Part shown: piece by piece, positions 10,206 through 59,171 of the stretch
How positions within the stretch are numbered: the stretch's first letter is position 1
Layout: the number at the start of each line of letters is the position of its first letter
DNA from: Basidiobolus meristosporus CBS 931.73
Taxonomy: Eukaryota > Basidiobolomycota > Basidiobolomycetes > Basidiobolales > Basidiobolaceae
Length of the DNA stretch: 64,000 nucleotides
Assembly: GCA_002104905.1 (NCBI GenBank)
Contig: MCFE01000146.1
Span: 1-64,000 of the forward strand
Direction: 5' to 3'
Position numbers and translations under genes: made by a program
The notes under the pieces: model-generated
The model's input: the letters and a program-made list of their open reading frames with translations, nothing else
The model's database searches: none
Told to the model about the DNA's origin: nothing

Positions 10206-10211
10206 TATAAA
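10206..10211 (+). promoter_or_regulatory. TATA box upstream of the 7TM-RGS gene
   Basis: TATAAA lies 33 nt before the ATG at 10244 and 54 nt before the in-frame ATG at 10265. This is a canonical TATA position if transcription begins near 10235. In that case the leader is very short and the later ATG (MDYNIHV) may be the real start. Confidence 0.45.
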
Positions 10212-10243
10212 GGAGACCACGCCACGTCGCCAGTGAATGGAAA

Positions 10244-11578
10244 TTGATGATTTTTCTTTCCCGGATGGATTACAACATTCATGTTCACCAGATAGCGAAT
10301 ATGAGTCTACTAGCCATCTGGCTACTGTTCACATTCATATCCACGGCGATGTTTTTACGTAATCGAAACCACGAGATGATCAAGTATCGAAGCGCCATGC
10401 TAACCATCGGAAGTGTTGCCTCCCTTAATATCCTGATTTCATACTTGATCACCAAGATCACCCGGGCCAGATTCCTTTGCAACCTTGCGATTTGGTTTGT
10501 TTCCATAGGCGGGGTAATCACCATACTGTCGGTGCTCCTGAAGTATCTCAAGCTGGCCATCCTGTTCTACGCCAGTGAGGCGAAACTCCATGCGGTGCGG
10601 CAAAGCTATTCCCAAGGATCCAACACCAAGATGCACCAGTTCGAAATCAAAGATCCCGGCAACGAGCACTTGGAGCTTATATTCGATACGGACACGATAT
10701 GCAGGGAGGAGCGTGTTTTGAATCAGATCCAGCTATTTCGGTATCAAATTCGATTGCCTTCCAAGTGGATCACGTACGGACTGGGTGCAGCGATCACCAT
10801 GCAGGTGGCCATCACTCTTATCATGACACTAACACACAAAGAGATCCATGACATTGGCTCCTCCGAAGAGTGCTTCAACCATGTCACATTCCTTCCCTTG
10901 AAGATCATTTGCTCGATCTATGCAGCGGTCATTGGTTTTTTCTGCCTGTACATGCTTCATGGAGTTCACGACGCCTTTGGGATTCGCAAGGAGCTCGTAT
11001 ACATCATCATCACGATAGTGGTTCTGCTGGGGGCATTTGTTGTTTACAACTTCGTGGGGGTATTTAAGCCGTACCATTCTGTGTTTGCGTCCAGTTACTT
11101 GCTCATCCTAGGATTGATGATCATCCAGATCATCATGATTAACATCCCGTTGCTAAAGGTCTACCGGAACACGCGGAATCAATGGAACTTGGAGAAGGGC
11201 CAGATCGGCTTTAACGAGGTGGTGGAGGATCCGTTGTTGTTCGAGCAATTCAAAGACTTCACCGTCAAGGAATTTAGCATAGAGAACCCGTTGTTTTTCG
11301 AGCGGTGTCAGCGCATGAAAAAGCTCCCCACCGCCTTGATCAGAGACGAGGCCTTGGCAATCTACGATACTTTCATTGTCCCAGGGGCCGCTCTACAGGT
11401 CAACCTGTGCAATGCCGTCGTTAAGGAGATCACCTTCAAGATCGTCGACAACCAGATCGACGACACTGTATTTGATCCGGCCATACGCGAGGTGGCTGAG
11501 ATCATGATGCGGCACACCTTCCCTCGTTTCCTCCGCTCTTGTAAGGGCCAAAGCTTCAAGTTTGCTCAGCTGTTCTAA
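10244..11578 (+). CDS. Seven-transmembrane protein with C-terminal RGS domain
   Basis: A single exon of 444 residues. Seven hydrophobic helices are visible in order, including SLLAIWLLFTFISTAMF, SVASLNILISYLI, LAIWFVSIGGVITILSVLL, LGAAITMQVAITLIMTL, CSIYAAVIGFFCLYML, IIITIVVLLGAFVVY and LLILGLMIIQIIMINIPLL. After the last helix comes an RGS domain (about residues 325-440): DPLLFEQFKDFTVKEFSIENPLFF at its start, AIYDTFIVPGAALQVNL in the middle and FPRFLRSC at its end. The family acts at the plasma membrane. The receptor part is expected to couple to a G-alpha protein and the RGS part to speed GTP hydrolysis (family knowledge). Fungal 7TM-RGS proteins are typified by Aspergillus GprK. The ligand is unknown. 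Confidence 0.85.
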   Translation: MMIFLSRMDYNIHVHQIANMSLLAIWLLFTFISTAMFLRNRNHEMIKYRSAMLTIGSVASLNILISYLITKITRARFLCNLAIWFVSIGGVITILSVLLKYLKLAILFYASEAKLHAVRQSYSQGSNTKMHQFEIKDPGNEHLELIFDTDTICREERVLNQIQLFRYQIRLPSKWITYGLGAAITMQVAITLIMTLTHKEIHDIGSSEECFNHVTFLPLKIICSIYAAVIGFFCLYMLHGVHDAFGIRKELVYIIITIVVLLGAFVVYNFVGVFKPYHSVFASSYLLILGLMIIQIIMINIPLLKVYRNTRNQWNLEKGQIGFNEVVEDPLLFEQFKDFTVKEFSIENPLFFERCQRMKKLPTALIRDEALAIYDTFIVPGAALQVNLCNAVVKEITFKIVDNQIDDTVFDPAIREVAEIMMRHTFPRFLRSCKGQSFKFAQLF

Positions 11579-12752: not shown

Positions 12753-15700
12753 CTAGAAAGTCTACGAAGAAGGGTTATTGCCCATTCTCATGGAACCGCC
12801 AACACGAAACCAGTTACCTCGTCTTGATTCGGGCATTCGTCGGTCCAGTGAAGATCGAATTCTTCACAGTTATCGCAATACTTTACAGAACCACTCGGTC
12901 AGAAGCTAATCCGTATTCAACATGACTCTGGAGCACTTACCATCCTGTCCGAATCACCTTCATACCCACCGTACCCGTTCATATCAATCGGATACATTGT
13001 GCAGGAAAGAATGTCATGGCCAACCGAGTCGCATAATTCACAGTATAGCTCCGCATCCTCATCGTCAGTTAAGGCCGCTGATAAAGAGCTGAATTTGGCC
13101 TTGGATGAGCCTGCACCTGGTTTCTCATCCAGACGCTTCTCTTCACCCTTAGGGCTGGTGGCTTCCGTGTGCGTATCCAGGTGCTCGACTTTCTTCTTGA
13201 GCTCAGTGATCTGCTCTTCCAGCTCTGCCTCGCGGAAGATCTTATGCTCCACTATGCTCTCCAGCTCGGCAATGTCCTTGGATTGCATCTCAATCTCTTT
13301 CTGCTTGGTGATCTCAAGATCAGTCATCCGCTTCTGAAGCTGCCGGATGTCGTCGCGGTACTGCTGCTTCATTTGGTTGATGATGGTTTGCTTTTCCGTA
13401 AGGACGCTGCGTAGACGGTTGACTTCAACATCGTCCGATTTGATCTCGTTTGCTTCATCCTCAGATTGGATCATCTCCTCCGAAGACGTGGGCAATATCA
13501 TGTCGCCCTCAAGCGATTCATTGTGGAGCCTCTCTACTTCATCCATTAACTTCAAGCACTCGGCCTCCATCTGTTTGTGGGCTTCCAAAAGACTGGCTTG
13601 CGCCTCCATCAAGGCGGAGTAATCCGACTGTAATCTTGTCTGCTGAGCCAATGATTGAGCATGTTCGGCCTTGAGCTCTTCGAACGATTGAAGGAGGGCG
13701 GCGTTGCCGTTGGCCTCATCTTGTGGAATGCCCTGCGACCCAGGCGCCGCGAGCTGTGAACGCAATGCCTCTATCTCAGATTTCAATTGAAGTATCTGCT
13801 CATCTTTCTCTTCCACAGCCTTCTCAAGCAATGAGGAATCTTCTTCAACGATAGCATGCAAGTCCTTGATGGTATCAGTAAGCTCGACGATTTCCGGATT
13901 ATCAATGCCTCGCTTACTAATCCCAGCGTCCTCATTGAGCAGCTTCTTGATGTTTTCCAGTTCGGCTTCTAGCTTACGCTTATCCGTGGCCCAGGTCTCT
14001 CGAGAAGAGAGCAGTTCTTGGTAAGAAGCCTGCGCGTGGCTAAGTTCCTCCTCCATTGTTGACACCTTGGAAGCAAGATCCTTTTGATGTTCGGTTAATT
14101 GCTGCTTCTCTTCCTCCAGAATTTTGGCTTTGCTTTGCAACTCTTCCAGCTCGGATAAGAGTCTTGTTTTCTCTTGATTGACTTGGTCCCCATTCTCTGC
14201 CTGACTTGCAGTCAGCCTATCTACTTCGGTCTTGAGCTTTTGAATCTCTTCTTTGCGCTTCCCGCTAGTAACTTGATAATTGTCAACGATTTCTTGGAGA
14301 GCATTGGTCTCATTTTTCAGCTCTTCCTCCCGAAGTTTGGCTTTCTCCAGCTCAAGTCTGAGAGCATCCGTCTCAGCTTCCAGTTCTCTTCCGGCCTCGA
14401 CAATGTTCTTGACTTGCTCCTGAAGTGAATGATTCTCTTCTTTAAGAGACTGAAGTTCTCGCTCATAGTGATCGAACGCTTCAGATCCGGCCGATCGCAG
14501 CTGATTTACCATCTGCTCTTGATCTTTGATAGTTCTCTCGTAATCCATCAACTGACTTTTGAGCGCGGATGCATCTGCTTGTTCTACAGCGGCGAGCTGC
14601 TCCTTGTATATCTGCATCCTCTCCGTCTCTTCCTGTTGAATTCTTGATATCGTTTCAACAAGCTGAGCCTTTTCTTTCTCGAAATCGGATTTCGTACGGT
14701 CGAGGCGAGCAGTGAGCTTGCCCACTTCGATGCTTTTATTCTCCAACTCCGTTTGCAGCGAGGCAATCAAATCTTGATTCGCCATTTCTCCTTCTCTTTG
14801 CAACTCCACCTTGGAGAGCCTCTCCCTGAGCTCCGACTCGGTGGCAGCTTTAAGCTTGAGCTCCATGTTGGCAGACTCGATGGCTTCTTGCAACTCTGCT
14901 ACCTGTGATACCTTACCGTCAAGCTCCTTGGCCAGCTTCTCCGTCGCCAAAGCTACCTCCGACTTGACCTGATTTTCGGATTCCAATAGGAGGCTTGCCT
15001 TCTCCTCCTTGACGAGATCAAGCTCTTTTAGATACAGGTCCACCTTGGTCTCCAGCTGAGTGATCAATTCCGATTGCTCGGACTTTTGAGTGGCCCATTG
15101 ATGCTCAAGGTCCTTCAATTGATCCACCTCCTTCTGGAGTTCATCGATCGGGAGTTGGGCAGTCTCGCTGGGGGCTTCGGCAGTCTCGTTTCGATTCTGT
15201 TGAGCCTCAAGTTTGAGGAATTTGGTTTCGGACTCCAGCATCTCGATCTGAAGCTGAAGGTTTTGGATTTTCGAATTCGCCTGCTCCAAGGAAAGCAACT
15301 CGCTCTTGCCGGAGGACTGGAAATCCTGCAAGGCGGCTTCTTCGTTGGCGGTCTCTGATGCCGGAGCGATGGCCCCGGAATGGACCGGTGAGTTGGATCT
15401 GGAGGGGGTTGGTGGGCCCTTCGGGGACGTTGGGGAAGGCGAGGGCGATGGAACGGAATAGCCAGGAGGCGATTTGGCGGAGCCATTTGTCTGGAGGGTC
15501 TTCAACGGAGGGAGGGACTTCCGGCTAGATTCTCGTTTACTCTCCAACGAAGCAGCGGCGGAATTGGGAGAGATCGGAGGGGCTGGAGACGAATTCACCT
15601 TTTTTAGTTGGGCAGCAGTCATACCAATATATCGCGAGGCCCTCGCACCAGTTACATTGGGAACTGGGTTTGTTGGGGATAAAAGTAACAACGATGATTT

Positions 15701-16628
15701 ATTGGTTGGTACGTCGGAGCTAGAAATGGAACTTGGAAGGGGGATGCCTCTTCTTTTAGAGACTGAAGGGGTGGTGTCTTTCACGGCCTCCTCTGTCGGG
15801 GCATCCTCGTGGGTGGGCTCCTCTTGAACCGGAGACTCGCCGGCTCGAACTCTCGTGAGTTTGTGTGCCAAAACAAACAACCCGGTCTTCGGGGGGCAAG
15901 TGAAGTATACAACCCTGTTGCACAAAACGGAGTGGTTCAGATTAGAATTCGCTGGGAAAGAAACAATCCAGAATAGAAAACAAACTGCACACGTACCCAT
16001 CCACGACGCCGTCGTTCTTTCCTGCTCCTTCAACATCCAACTCTATTCCAGCCCACGTTCCTGGCTTAAACTTGGTGGGCCCTAAGAATCTTAGGGTTCC
16101 GCTGATACCCATAGACTCGGCAGTAACCTTGTCGCCCACCTGGAATTGCCCCAATACGGCAGGAGAAGTGGGTCTTGGGAGTTGCTTCAAGGCACTAAGC
16201 CGCTTTGGAGACAACAACGCCGACCCGGTATGCTCAGTCCCCATAGCTGGTGAGGGAGCGTTCGATAGTGACGGCAGTTTGGAGGGGGGCTTGGGCGCTG
16301 GTGGTCTGGAAGAGGCTATGGGAGGTTTGTCGCCAGCCACTATATTGGGCGAACTGCTAACAGAAGAAGGCTTTGAGAGGCTTGGTTTACGGATACCGGA
16401 GCCACTTGAGATCCGCTTGTTGACTGCGTTCAAGGGTCCAGCAGGGGGGGGCGAGGGGGAAATTCGATCGGCGGACAAGGTCCCAGAGAAACGGCGACTC
16501 TCAGATGAAGCGTCGGAAGAAACTGACTCGCGGTCAGATGGGACATTGTTGCTCGTGGAAAGCCCAAAAGACTTGCGCTTAGTGGGAGGGGGCAAACCAG
16601 AGCCAGGCTTCGGTAACTTGGACATCAT
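12753..16628 (-). CDS. CLIP-170-like microtubule plus-end protein (CAP-Gly, coiled coil, zinc knuckles)
   Basis: Four exons: 15997-16628, 12941-15914, 12818-12880 and 12753-12761. All junctions are in phase and give 1,225 residues. A Ser/Pro-rich basic N-terminus, suited to microtubule binding, leads to a CAP-Gly domain at about residues 152-228 (GTLRFLGPTKFKPGTWAGIELD, GKNDG, then YFTCPPKTGLFV after intron 1). A coiled coil of roughly 700 residues follows. The C-terminus has two zinc knuckles: YCELCDSVGHDILSC and, on a separate exon of 21 codons, YCDNCEEFDLHWTDEC. The last exon has only three codons (Thr, Phe, stop), so the protein ends NQDETF, the EEY/F-type tail known from human CLIP-170 that binds CAP-Gly domains. 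Expected roles are plus-end tracking and dynein/dynactin recruitment. Confidence 0.92.
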
Positions 16629-27100: not shown

Positions 27101-30100
27101 ATGCTCTTAGAAACAATTAAAATAGATGAGCCCATAATAGGCCCTTGTGAACAGGATACAAAATCTCTGACAGAAATCGATCCACCAGTGAACAAAGCAG
27201 TAAAATGTTTGGCCCAAACTCTTCAGGCTGTAAAGGAGCATGTTCAGGCGTGTTTGATCGATCAGCCAAATGGTAAGCTTCTGGAACGAATGATCTCGCA
27301 CCACTTCGACTAACCTGCTTTTAGCTGAGATTCAGAGTTTACAAACACAAATTCTTAAGGAACTAAATCAGCTCCTGTATTCTGCTACCTCTAACCCAGA
27401 GAGTACTCCCTTACTCAGTACTCTTTCTGAGCTGAAGGAGATCCTGACTACGGAGGTTGAGGAGGATTCTCTTCATTTCGTAGTAGAGTTTTACTGCTTA
27501 ATGGTCGCCTTCACCACTGTATGCCAGCTATTTTTCGATAGACTTTTGAATGAATTGGTTGGCGAGATCCAGGCTGCTTACTCAAAAAGTAAGCACCCAT
27601 CCCAAATGTCCAGCTTTCAGCAACTCTTTCACGATGCCGATAATTACACCCGTCCTGGGTCCTTCAACTCTTATCTGTGGCACTATCACTTTCTTACCAT
27701 CACTGCCAACCAGAACTTCGGCCGGCTCCTAGAAAGCCTAATCCAAAAAGAGAGGATCAGTTTCACCAATCTAGACTACGTCGAGACCATCTACTCCACA
27801 TTCTACATGAGCCACTTTCTAAATGCATCTGCGCAGCAGCACCAAAAAGATAGGGGGCAGTTTTTTACCCCGCGTTCCGTCGTCAAGTTCATGTGGGACA
27901 GGGTGCTACGCTCGGAAAAAGGGAGGGTGATGGATTTAGCGAGGATCATAGCCGAGAACCGTGGTGAATACCTGATACTCCCGCCTACTCTTGATCCATG
28001 TATGGGTATTGGTGGGTTTTTGTGTGAATACATCAACCGAATCACCAAGTTCGCCAGTACCAACCCTATCATTTGGAATCAAAGCCTCAAGGTTGAGGAA
28101 GTGATGTCTGCCTGCGTGGAGTCAATGTGGGGGATTGAGATCGACCTGTTCACCAGCACTATTGGCAAACTCAATATCATGATCCACCTGGTGCCCCTTT
28201 ATAAGCGTTGGCTGGAGTTGCAGGTGGTAGCCAAGACACAAAAGCGCTTCAGACTTCCTCGGTTGAAGCTTTTCTGTAATGATACCCTCAAGCTCTATCT
28301 GCCCAACGATGGATCGGACCCCTGGACCAAGTATCATCTGAGTACGCTCCGGGATCCAGGCGGCGTGCGATTCCACTACATCCTCACTAACCCACCCTAC
28401 ATGATCCGCAAGACCGGGATAGTCTCCGAGCCCGACCCGGTTCTCTACGACACTACTGTCCTGTGCGGAAAAGGAACCCAGGCCTATAGCTACTTCATTT
28501 GGATCGCGCTTCAGAAATTGTCCAAGGCTGGTATCCTTTGCCTCATCACAGGTATGGACCCCTTATTATCGAGAGTTGGGCAGAATGCTGACTGTTGCAA
28601 TGTTTAGCTAGCCAATGGATGACCCTGGAGTTTGCTGACAAACTAAGGTAGATTTATCTTTGCTGGCCAAACAACCACGGGCACTTCTGATTTTTGAGAA
28701 CATAGGGCGTGGATGTGGAAGAACTGCTGGTTGCACGAATTTTACCAGTTCGAACCTTACAAGGTCTGGAGAAAGGTTCAGACCGACTCACTTATATTCG
28801 TGGTTCGCCGTAAGTCCGAGGACATGACTGACCGAAATCAGAATGATCAGATCATTTTCCTGCGGTATATGGATCGTAAGGCCTCGCTGGAGGAAACCCT
28901 TCTAGCCTATGAGACCTTCATCGCTGGCCCCAATAGAAAAGGCAATGCGCTAATGGAGTCGAAGTTATCAACCCAGGAGCAGAAGCTCAATGGCCGTTCG
29001 TTTTCATTTTTGATGCCCAACTCCCCGACCAGCACCTCCATCCATGCCCTGGTTAAGGGCCTAGCCGGTATCTGTGATGCTTCTGGGAAGGCTGCCCAGT
29101 GGTCAGACGATTGCCCGTTGATATGGCATCGTGGGCCCAATACTAATCCGGTGTACGCATTGGTGGTGCGAACCGAGTGGGGTCGAATGAAGTTTGGCGA
29201 AGAGAATTGTCGGAAATGGTTAAGGCCCGTCTTTTATTGGAATGGCATGGCCAACGGGCAAAAGGAGGTGAAGGAATATCGCTTCTGGGAGAACAAGGAC
29301 CCTTATCGGCTGAGCAAGAAAGAGGGCTCGCCGGCCGAATCCTACATGCCGGTAGAACCTCGGACAGACTACTCGCTAATAATGGTGGATAAGGCTGGGT
29401 CGAACACATTGATTGCCAATCAGCGCTCGAATCCCACCCCATTTTACCTATATCTGAAGGAGGCCCGTGAAAAGTTGCAACCAACGTTCGAGGACCGAGA
29501 GATTGCCTATTGCGGCACTCAGAAATGCGGGTAAGTACTGGCTCGTAGCTGATGCCCAGATTTCATGCGGTGCTGACCCTTGGTGTAGTGTAGACGTACC
29601 GACCAAAATCATCACTCCCATCAACTACGGCTACTTCTCCAAGAACCAGGTATGTGCGGATTCCCAGATTACTATCGGCAAACAGTCACTTATCAACGGG
29701 CCCATAGCCACGACAACGATTCTTCATCGACAAGAGCTCCGTGTGTGTCACGAATCAGGTATGCGACCGTACGAGGAATCGTTTTCCGGATCCAGACTGA
29801 CAGTGGTCCTTGGTTTATCGCCACAGTGCATTTATTTCACTGTAAAGCCTCACTTGGACATAGGCTATTCCTACTTTCTAGGGTTGTTGAACTCCTCTGT
29901 AATCCAATTTCTGATGGCGGAGCACTGTAAATACGATCAGCAAGGCCGGATGCGCTTGTTCAGAGAAAACATGGCCAAGCTACCCTACAAACCACCATCC
30001 AGTGAGCTCGTCGGATGGGTCGCGAAACTGGTGGGCAACATATCTGCGCTGAAGAGACTGATCTTCCAAGTACTGCATGTTCTATCGATCGCTCCGGATT

Positions 30101-30840
30101 CCTGGCTTGAGTATATGCGCCAAGGAAAATACCGGCTCAAACCCAGCGAATGCGAGGTGTTGCAAGCCAGGTTGTCGCAGTTTCATCTGAACTCCGGGGC
30201 CGTTGGAGAGGAGCATGGTTTACAGGAGAGGGTGGTTCGCCTGTTGGAGAGCTCGCTGTTCATGCTGAGTGCTCTACAATATGGACTGGATCAGGTTTTC
30301 TACTTGATATACGATGTCCGGATCGAGCTGCAAGTCGAGTTGGAGAATGAGCTCCGACTCGACGTCAACTCTTCGATCGTTGAAGAATATCCACGCCACG
30401 ACCGCCATCATTCTAAAATCGACACGTCCAGCAGAGAGTCCGATAGTCCTGTAGATACCACCCCACAGCCCACCGATGCACCTGTTTCTCTTGGCTTGGC
30501 TGAGAACAATGAGGTTCTGAAACTCCCTGTACTGTATTTTCCATCCATCAACCCACAAATTACTCTCCCGCCTTTTCGTGAACTCTTCCATATGCACATC
30601 AACCCCGACGCCTCGAGTTTGCAGTCCCTCGGCACGCATTCTGTCTCAAGCGCAACCTCGCTCGCCGAACAGCCGGTGGTCGAGCACAGGGCCGAACCTC
30701 ATGTAGATAATAGCGATATGGAGATAGAGATCGCCTTTCCGCCTTGGCTGGTTGAGCTTGTGGACAAATCAACCAGTACGTTGCGATCGGTTCAGGAGTT
30801 CCATGAATTTCTAACCAATTCCACTGGCACACCAGTCTAA
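27101..30840 (+). CDS. Spliced N6-adenine DNA methyltransferase with TaqI/Eco57I-like recognition region
   Basis: Seven exons (27101-27272, 27325-28551, 28608-28647, 28706-29530, 29589-29649, 29708-29758, 29827-30840) join in phase to 1,129 residues. A helical N-terminus of about 230 residues is followed by GQFFTPRSVVKFM (near 235), motif I LDPCMGIGGFL (near 280), GIEIDLFTSTIGKLNIMIH, and the catalytic TNPPYM (413-416, NPPY class of amino-methyltransferases). Exons 3-4 supply the SQWMTLEFADKLRAW...VWRKVQTDSLIFVV strand of the fold. Exons 5-7 give QRFFIDKSSVCVTNQ, then FLGLLNSSVIQFL and ENMAKLPYKPP, the hallmark of TaqI/Eco57I C-terminal specificity domains. I see no PD-(D/E)XK nuclease motif in the N-terminus. 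The family in bacteria transfers methyl from SAM to adenine N6 in restriction-modification systems. Six 52-68 nt introns show a resident eukaryotic gene, not contamination. Target site and role are unknown. Confidence 0.85.
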
Positions 30841-31259
30841 TTGAATCCCTAATTGAATCCCAGTCTAGACATACATATAGAGTAGGGTATAATCAATCCG
30901 TACATAATTCCTCGTTACTTGTTCGATTTAATGTGATTTTTACTAGTAAATTTTCCGGTTTTGTGATTCAACTCCCCGTAGAGCTAGTTGGGCTGGGCAT
31001 CGTGTTCGTTGGAGATTGATCCAATAAAGGCTTAGAACTTATAAGTAACTGGCTCGGATACCATGCAAATAAATAGAAGTTTATTGAACTCCACGGCGTG
31101 GGAAATCGCTAAGCAAATCAGAATCGGGCATAAAAGAATCAACATGAAGACATAGTAAAAGAAAAGCTATATTATATATATATATATGTGCGTGTGTGTG
31201 TGTGCGTGAGTGATGATAGTAGGCAATGATCCTCCAGGGAAAGTGTTAGCTCTAAGACT
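30841..31259. other. Convergent 3' region
   Basis: This is the gap between the methyltransferase gene and the KASH5-like gene, which point at each other. It contains a (TA)n(TG)n microsatellite at about 31172-31208. Confidence 0.5.
31172..31208. repeat. (TA)n-(TG)n microsatellite
   Basis: A run of about eight TA units passes directly into a TG-rich tract interrupted by CG. It lies in the 3' gap between convergent genes. Confidence 0.8.
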
Positions 31260-58417: not shown

Positions 58418-58556
58418 TAGTTTACAGCTGTTACAGTATTGGAGCTTTGGTACAATACTCTAACAAAGGACTTTGAGCCAGTACCTTCTGAAGTGATGCA
58501 AATTTATTCATAATTTTGGATTATGGCTCAATAATTGTATTCTTGACAAACTAAAC

Positions 58557-59171
58557 ATGTCCAGTACAGAGTACAGCTTTGCAAGCATGATGGCTGCCTT
58601 TGCCCAGCTGCAACAAGACAATGCAGATTGCAGAAACACTGTTTCTCAGCTTCAGAGCCAAAATACTCAACAGCCTATCCATACTCCCTCCTACCATGAT
58701 CCCAAGATCACTTCCGCCACCAGGCTCAGTAGCTCCCAAAATGAGTTCAAAGGTCTCATCAACATAGTCAAACATCACTTGTTGCTACTCTGCAATTGGT
58801 TCCCAACAGATCAAGCAAAAGTTAGTTATATCTCTAACCTGCTCACTGGAACTACCCAGAAATGGTTCTCCCCTTTGGCAAAAATTAACTCCCCTCTACT
58901 TAGTGACTGCCATGCCTTCCTCACAGAAATGGAGCTAACATTTGGCAACATTGACCAAGTCAGAGCTGCTGCCAACAAGAGCAAGAACTTGAAGCAAGAA
59001 AACAGACCTGCATCTGCCTATGCTTCAGAGTCTTGGCTACTAGACAGTAACTTCAGCCTTTGGGGTGATGCTGCCTTAATTACTCAGTTTCAAGATGGAC
59101 TCAATTATGAAGTCAGTGACCTGCTACTCATACTCACTAACCCAACTACCTTTGGTGAAGCAGCAAGTTAA
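58557..59171 (+). pseudogene. Gag of gypsy element B
   Basis: 204 codons: a coiled start MMAAFAQLQQDNADCRNTVSQLQSQ, then the retrotransposon gag core (LLLLCNWFPTDQAKVSYISNLLTGTTQKWFSPL, FLTEMELTFGNIDQV). It stops at 59171 (AAS then TAA), and homologous-looking coding sequence continues afterwards (CFLQKKQKF), so the gag frame is truncated by mutation. No zinc knuckle survives. Confidence 0.8.

Follow-up and report, generated by a model that had tools for sequence, protein, structure and literature searches.

Can a fungus write adenine methylation with an enzyme of bacterial type? The question is raised by metB, a gene of Basidiobolus meristosporus CBS 931.73. The window which we have analysed is a stretch of 64,000 nucleotides (nt), positions 1–64,000 of contig MCFE01000146.1, and metB is found in its positions 27101–30840, on the + strand. 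We conclude, with a probability of about 0.87, that this nuclear gene, present in a single copy, encodes a stand-alone DNA N6-adenine methyltransferase of bacterial origin, which would be an asymmetric writer of N6-methyladenine (6mA). The basis of this reading is the gene model, the family membership, the predicted fold of an orthologue, the conservation and the co-occurrence with MT-A70 genes; the activity, the target and the replication behaviour of Basidiobolus MetB are inferred.

The original prediction, made from the sequence alone, supposed that the 6mA enzymes described in eukaryotes are of MT-A70 type. This premise fails: Lax et al. in 2024 gave the name MetB to a fungal PF02384 methylase family (PMC11258239). 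According to excerpts of that paper, asymmetric 6mA in Mucor (AAA6mACA) is written mainly by MetB. When the gene is deleted, 6mA falls by 70–75%, with asymmetric sites hit most, and AAA6mACA disappears as a motif. An ancient transfer from bacteria was also proposed there; an endosymbiont is a published candidate for its donor. Passages of a 2025 paper describe MetB as a laterally acquired asymmetric writer (PMC12695648), and those of a 2026 review restate the Mucor deletion result (PMC13297926). The novelty implied by the prediction is lost with them: the find is real and its interpretation largely right, but it is already published at the family level. Our literature search, which did not extend to supplementary lists, brought up no paper about a Basidiobolus MetB. 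The two holders outside Mucoromycota named in the excerpts of Lax et al. are Conidiobolus coronatus and Paraphysoderma sedebokerense, Basidiobolus not being among them; the genus name appears once in the text, in an entry of the reference list (PMC11258239). We add the single copy among fungal genes, the four MT-A70 genes alongside and the conservation of the recognition domain.

Gene structure and family membership

The seven exons and six GT-AG introns join in phase into a single restored frame of 1129 amino acids (aa), with the coordinates that had been predicted. All features are on the + strand:

27101..30840, +: metB coding sequence, join(27101..27272, 27325..28551, 28608..28647, 28706..29530, 29589..29649, 29708..29758, 29827..30840), 3390 nt with stop
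27101..27272, +: exon 1, start codon and N-terminal helical region (gene model, aligned to P0001, the B. ranarum orthologue)
27273..27324, +: intron 1, 52 nt, GT-AG
27325..28551, +: exon 2, remaining helical region and most of the methyltransferase domain
27855..27872, +: motif X, GQFFTP, aa 235–240 (aligned residues and exon map)
27993..28022, +: SAM-binding motif I, DPCMGIGGFL, aa 281–290 (aligned residues and exon map)
28389..28400, +: catalytic motif IV, NPPY, aa 413–416 (aligned residues)
28552..28607, +: intron 2, 56 nt, GT-AG
28608..28647, +: exon 3, 40 nt
28648..28705, +: intron 3, 58 nt, GT-AG
28706..29530, +: exon 4, end of the methyltransferase domain, then first part of the recognition domain
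28947..30000, +: target-recognition region, aa 561–850, span including introns 4–6 (conservation and fold)
29531..29588, +: intron 4, 58 nt, GT-AG
29589..29649, +: exon 5, with the conserved PINYGYF (gene model and 17-row alignment)
29650..29707, +: intron 5, 58 nt, GT-AG
29708..29758, +: exon 6, with PRQRFFIDKSSVCVTNQ (gene model and 17-row alignment)
29759..29826, +: intron 6, 68 nt, GT-AG
29827..30840, +: exon 7, TaqI_C-like end of the recognition domain, C-terminal helices, variable tail, stop codon (30838–30840)

Introns 2–6 split the conserved motifs LITASQW, KLRAWMW, KCGVD, NQPRQRFF and TNQCIYF. As had been noticed, the motifs are whole after splicing, and each spliced junction continues in step with homologues of other fungi in a 17-row alignment. 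A branch-site-like CTRAY match is found in five of the six introns. A 12-base direct repeat, CTAATTGAATCC, with 2.1 copies at window positions 30837–30861, overlaps the stop codon.

The methylase domain is of bacterial type, as predicted: PF02384 scores 49.7 bits, above its curated cut-off of 20.4. N6_Mtase (4.3e-13) and Eco57I (4.6e-9) both match in the single frame of exon 2, whereas TaqI_C, also expected, only reaches E 0.0035 in the frame of exon 7, below the Pfam cut-off; within the family, 18 of 24 members have a TaqI_C match at E ≤ 0.01. Motifs X, I and IV are present as described, and NPPY is found in all 50 fungal-type rows of alignment A2. The gene is confirmed far above chance, because its exon frames match N6_Mtase and Eco57I and the spliced protein matches that of B. 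ranarum over its full length. The predicted recognition region is borne out by a conserved stretch behind the methylase domain, through which CamA, BseCI and BrxX align. Its borders, aa 561–850, are our own choice from conservation and fold. PF20466, named in excerpts of PMC11258239, is absent from the Pfam scans of the window frames and of the 24 members. The MT-A70 domain PF05063 has no match in the metB frames or in these members, and the catalytic motif is NPPY, not DPPW.

By its sequence the protein is the Basidiobolus member of the MetB family, a PF02384 methylase of early-diverging fungi. The B. ranarum protein has 75% identity over 100% of it and is the sole high full-length match; M. 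circinelloides P0033 aligns over 81% of the query, through the methylase and recognition domains. We searched a set of 5.8 billion proteins by similarity and by profile, and in both cases only the approximately 8000 candidates sharing most words were scored. The similarity search gave 84 proteins, none with ≥90% identity: all 79 with an organism name are from early-diverging fungi (Mucoromycota sensu lato, Glomeromycota, Mortierellomycota, Calcarisporiella, one Blastocladiomycota and B. ranarum), none being named Ascomycota or Basidiomycota. The profile search gave 109, of which 51 are fungal-type with at least 453 bits and 58 are bacterial-type with at most 70 bits; two of the latter have an organism name and both are bacterial. 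The best bacterial-type scores are 74 bits (P0084, similarity search) and 70 bits (P0091, profile search). This gap agrees with the bacterial-fungal identity, often below 30%, given in excerpts of Lax et al. (PMC11258239). A metagenome protein of 1051 aa, P0055, is a divergent MetB with 34% identity, found on a long branch beside the Mortierella rows (94, quick tree); it may mark another fungal lineage with metB.

The recognition domain and its predicted target site

According to the mechanism which we propose, a bacterial one-chain restriction-modification or BREX-type enzyme would have reached an early fungal ancestor, and the MetB lineage would have lost its nuclease or never had one. The class I methylase domain would bind S-adenosylmethionine (SAM) through motifs X and I; one adenine would be flipped into an aromatic cage and methylated through NPPY. 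The domain which follows would read a non-palindromic site, which would restrict methylation to one strand. After replication there would be no hemimethylated template for this mark, and the enzyme would have to write it again each time; the symmetric ApT mark of Mta1/Mta9 differs in this respect.

Is the site the same in all fungi? It is possible, though unlikely, that the MetB of Basidiobolus is catalytically alive but reads a site other than that of Mucor, in which case AAA6mACA could not be transferred. The 37% overall identity between the window protein and that of M. circinelloides agrees with this alternative. It is opposed by the conservation of the recognition region. In the 20 fungal rows outside Basidiobolus, the methylase domain has a mean identity of 50.5% to the window protein, with 43/289 invariant columns, and the recognition domain one of 51.6%, with 64/290; for M. 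circinelloides the identities are 46.6% and 47.4% in this order. At the two protein ends the identity is lower, 23.2% in 17 rows and 19.8% in 9, counting only rows with at least 60% coverage.

The ratio of recognition to methylase identity was compared in fungi and bacteria. The 22 fungal rows are the window protein and 21 chosen from the 84 homologues, aligned with a different MAFFT setting from the 127 bacterial rows. In their 231 pairs the mean ratio is 0.98–1.37 by bin; it is at least 0.95 in 201 pairs and never lower than 0.85. In bacterial relatives it is 0.53–0.82 by bin (7943 pairs passing coverage), the recognition window being placed by distance from NPPY and not by known structure, and only 101 pairs reach 0.95. 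In 266 bacterial pairs the ratio is below half, as a change of site would allow, but 247 of them involve P0142, P0252, P0246 or P0243 and the pairs are thus not independent; without these four rows the mean is still 0.62–0.80 by bin. P0093 was the query of a full-length search that brought in 117 of the bacterial rows (from the 120 listed of 1507 matches), and such a search is biased towards similar recognition domains. A control with fixed windows was dropped and replaced by alignment columns: it suffered from long inserts (1186 fungal pairs in the 25–35% bin, mean 22%), for which the Mortierella rows are suspected, and only 9 of 59 bacterial rows were usable.

The recognition domain is thus as conserved in fungi as the catalytic one, and the simplest reading predicts one conserved target site. 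This extends a motif from one species, Mucor, into a prediction for every fungus with metB. We tentatively go further, at somewhat less than even odds: MetB would have one fixed non-palindromic site in all fungi which keep metB, unchanged ever since the gene was transferred close to the base of terrestrial fungi and Blastocladiomycota. It would give Basidiobolus a second 6mA layer, strand-specific and template-free, beside that of Mta1/Mta9, with two codes per nucleus over phylum-level time. The 6mA levels of Basidiobolomycota were reportedly obtained by single-molecule sequencing. The motif prediction can possibly be tested with no new sequencing, since these levels have already been measured (PMC11258239, in part).

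A decayed or repurposed methylase, which would no longer methylate and whose fold would serve as a scaffold or in DNA binding, is improbable. The poor conservation of the N-terminus and of the C-terminal tail agrees with such a reading, and no restriction partner was found: an exon-by-exon search of the genome (89.0 Mb, 1311 contigs) for HsdR-type subunits gave 0 matches to PF04313 and PF13588 at E ≤ 0.001, although a gene with very short exons could escape it (in control searches the two families match in 9 and 4 of 14 genomes). On the other side, motifs X, I and IV and the cage positions are kept in every row with letters, with one exception, E329 to D. Compared with B. ranarum, the two functional domains have 85.5% and 86.6% identity and the C-terminus has 60.3%, and the Mucor member is required for most 6mA in vivo (PMC11258239, in part). 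The absence of a visible nuclease, claimed in the original prediction, holds for the whole family sample: no nuclease family is found in any of the 24 members at E ≤ 0.01, and residues 27–230 of the P0001 model are predicted as helices only (996–1102 are disordered).

Descent, genomic setting and MT-A70 genes

An old lateral acquisition had been suggested, and the phylogeny agrees with it. In a careful tree of 20 rows of our choice, which leaves out P0055 and most bacterial rows, the window protein lies inside a fungal clade separated from bacteria with 100/100 support (17 fungal and 3 bacterial rows). A quick tree gives the same split (24 and 7 rows), with long branches flagged. The two Basidiobolus proteins group with Paraphysoderma, a 712-aa protein, with 99/99 support in the careful tree, where Mucoromycota sensu lato as one clade is not rejected (approximately unbiased test, p-AU 0.298). 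The unrooted topology is what vertical descent would predict. The bacterial outgroups are too far for dating or sourcing the transfer. Profile scans of GTDB genomes (53 pattern stretches) and IMG/VR contigs (48 pattern stretches) confirmed no bacterial or viral relative; the patterns were drawn from the recognition domain, and the result means that no close copy of this domain was found there.

Bacterial contamination or a recent separate transfer is very unlikely, of negligible weight: the domains are of bacterial type and a second, recent transfer proposed for Glomeromycota (PMC11258239, in part) makes such events conceivable, but metB has six short introns, groups with fungal rows in both trees, lies far above the best bacterial-type scores among the candidates scored and stands on a 154.6-kb contig among neighbours of eukaryotic kind (cyclin, RGS/7-transmembrane receptor, LYC1-like acetyltransferase, DEP and EF-hand proteins).

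The neighbour scan covered 10 open frames, three of them with no Pfam match at E ≤ 0.001. One of these, 12917–16042 (-), has 1041 aa from stop to stop. The frame 10211–11578 (+) has a 7tm_3-like stretch and an RGS domain. On a possible viral or mobile-element origin of metB, the IMG/VR scan gave no confirmed match, and one retrotransposon gag-like fragment (DUF4939, Retrotrans_gag) is found at 58497–59171 (+), about 28 kb from the gene.

The genome has a single copy of metB and four MT-A70 genes, detected as six PF05063 exon matches at four places. From their sequences we read them as METTL3-like (L002, contig C516), Mta1-like (L003 and L007, C47), METTL14-like (L004 and L005, C396) and Mta9-like (L006, C407). 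Among solved structures, L003 is nearest to the catalytic ciliate MT-A70 subunit (1e-10, vs 2e-4 for METTL3), which we take to be MTA1/AMT1. L006 is nearest to MTA9/AMT7 (7.6e-9, vs 6.6e-8 for the catalytic subunit and 1.5e-6 for METTL14) and L004 to METTL14. The catalytic-motif position reads DPPL in L006 and DPPW in L003; the DPPW exon of L002 is presumably METTL3-like, judging from its sequence. A published survey of MT-A70 took in B. meristosporus (PMC8298701, in part). Because metB and the Mta1-like and Mta9-like genes share a genome, genes for putative symmetric and asymmetric 6mA writers coexist in it.

Several points weigh against the picture of an asymmetric DNA methylase. Intron 5 has no CTRAY match. 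The structure model is that of the B. ranarum orthologue and not of the protein spliced from the window itself, and DNA as substrate is not proven by sequence alone. The bacterial outgroup is very distant (5 changes per column on each of two inner branches), and such long branches leave the root unsure. The carrying over of AAA6mACA from Mucor to Basidiobolus is a guess because of the low overall identity with M. circinelloides. Finally, Basidiobolomycota are 6mA-rich (0.8–3.8%) and high levels are tied to symmetric methylation (PMC11258239, in part), so that MetB may contribute little there.

Comparison with known systems

The Basidiobolus case joins a family in which a bacterial methylase has turned into a eukaryotic epigenetic writer; what remains of interest is this case itself, together with the constancy of the recognition domain and a donor that the searches did not find. 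The nearest system is the MetB of Mucor lusitanicus and other early-diverging fungi: it is the same family (PF02384 and a recognition domain, no nuclease found) and the same fungal clade, but in Basidiobolus the C-terminal tail is longer and variable.

The MT-A70 enzymes Mta1/AMT1 and Mta9 are also 6mA writers with genes in the same genome, but they belong to another family, with the catalytic motif DPPW. They write symmetric ApT methylation, as stated in parts of two papers (PMC11258239, PMC12695648). In type I restriction-modification there is an HsdR-type subunit, for which the exon-by-exon search of the Basidiobolus genome gave no match.

CamA is an orphan adenine methylase of Clostridioides difficile with the site CAAAAA (PMC8187626, in part). 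Its fold and aromatic cage resemble those predicted for MetB, with 18% identity. CamA has roughly half the length: its alignment with the model starts only at residue 206–233, and it has neither the N-terminal helical domain nor the tail. In BrxX/PglX of BREX and in the type IIG/IIL enzymes DrdV, MmeI and BpuSI the N-terminal helical domain is also aligned (693 residues for BrxX, 630 for DrdV). PglX acts together with other BREX proteins, and the metB protein stays below the cut-off of BREX_1_MTaseX (NCBIfam), with 30.3 vs 500 bits. The alignment begins at residue 151 in DrdV and at residue 159 in MmeI; their nuclease presumably sits before these positions. Type IIG/IIL enzymes carry a nuclease in the same chain, unlike the 24 MetB family members scanned, in which none was found.
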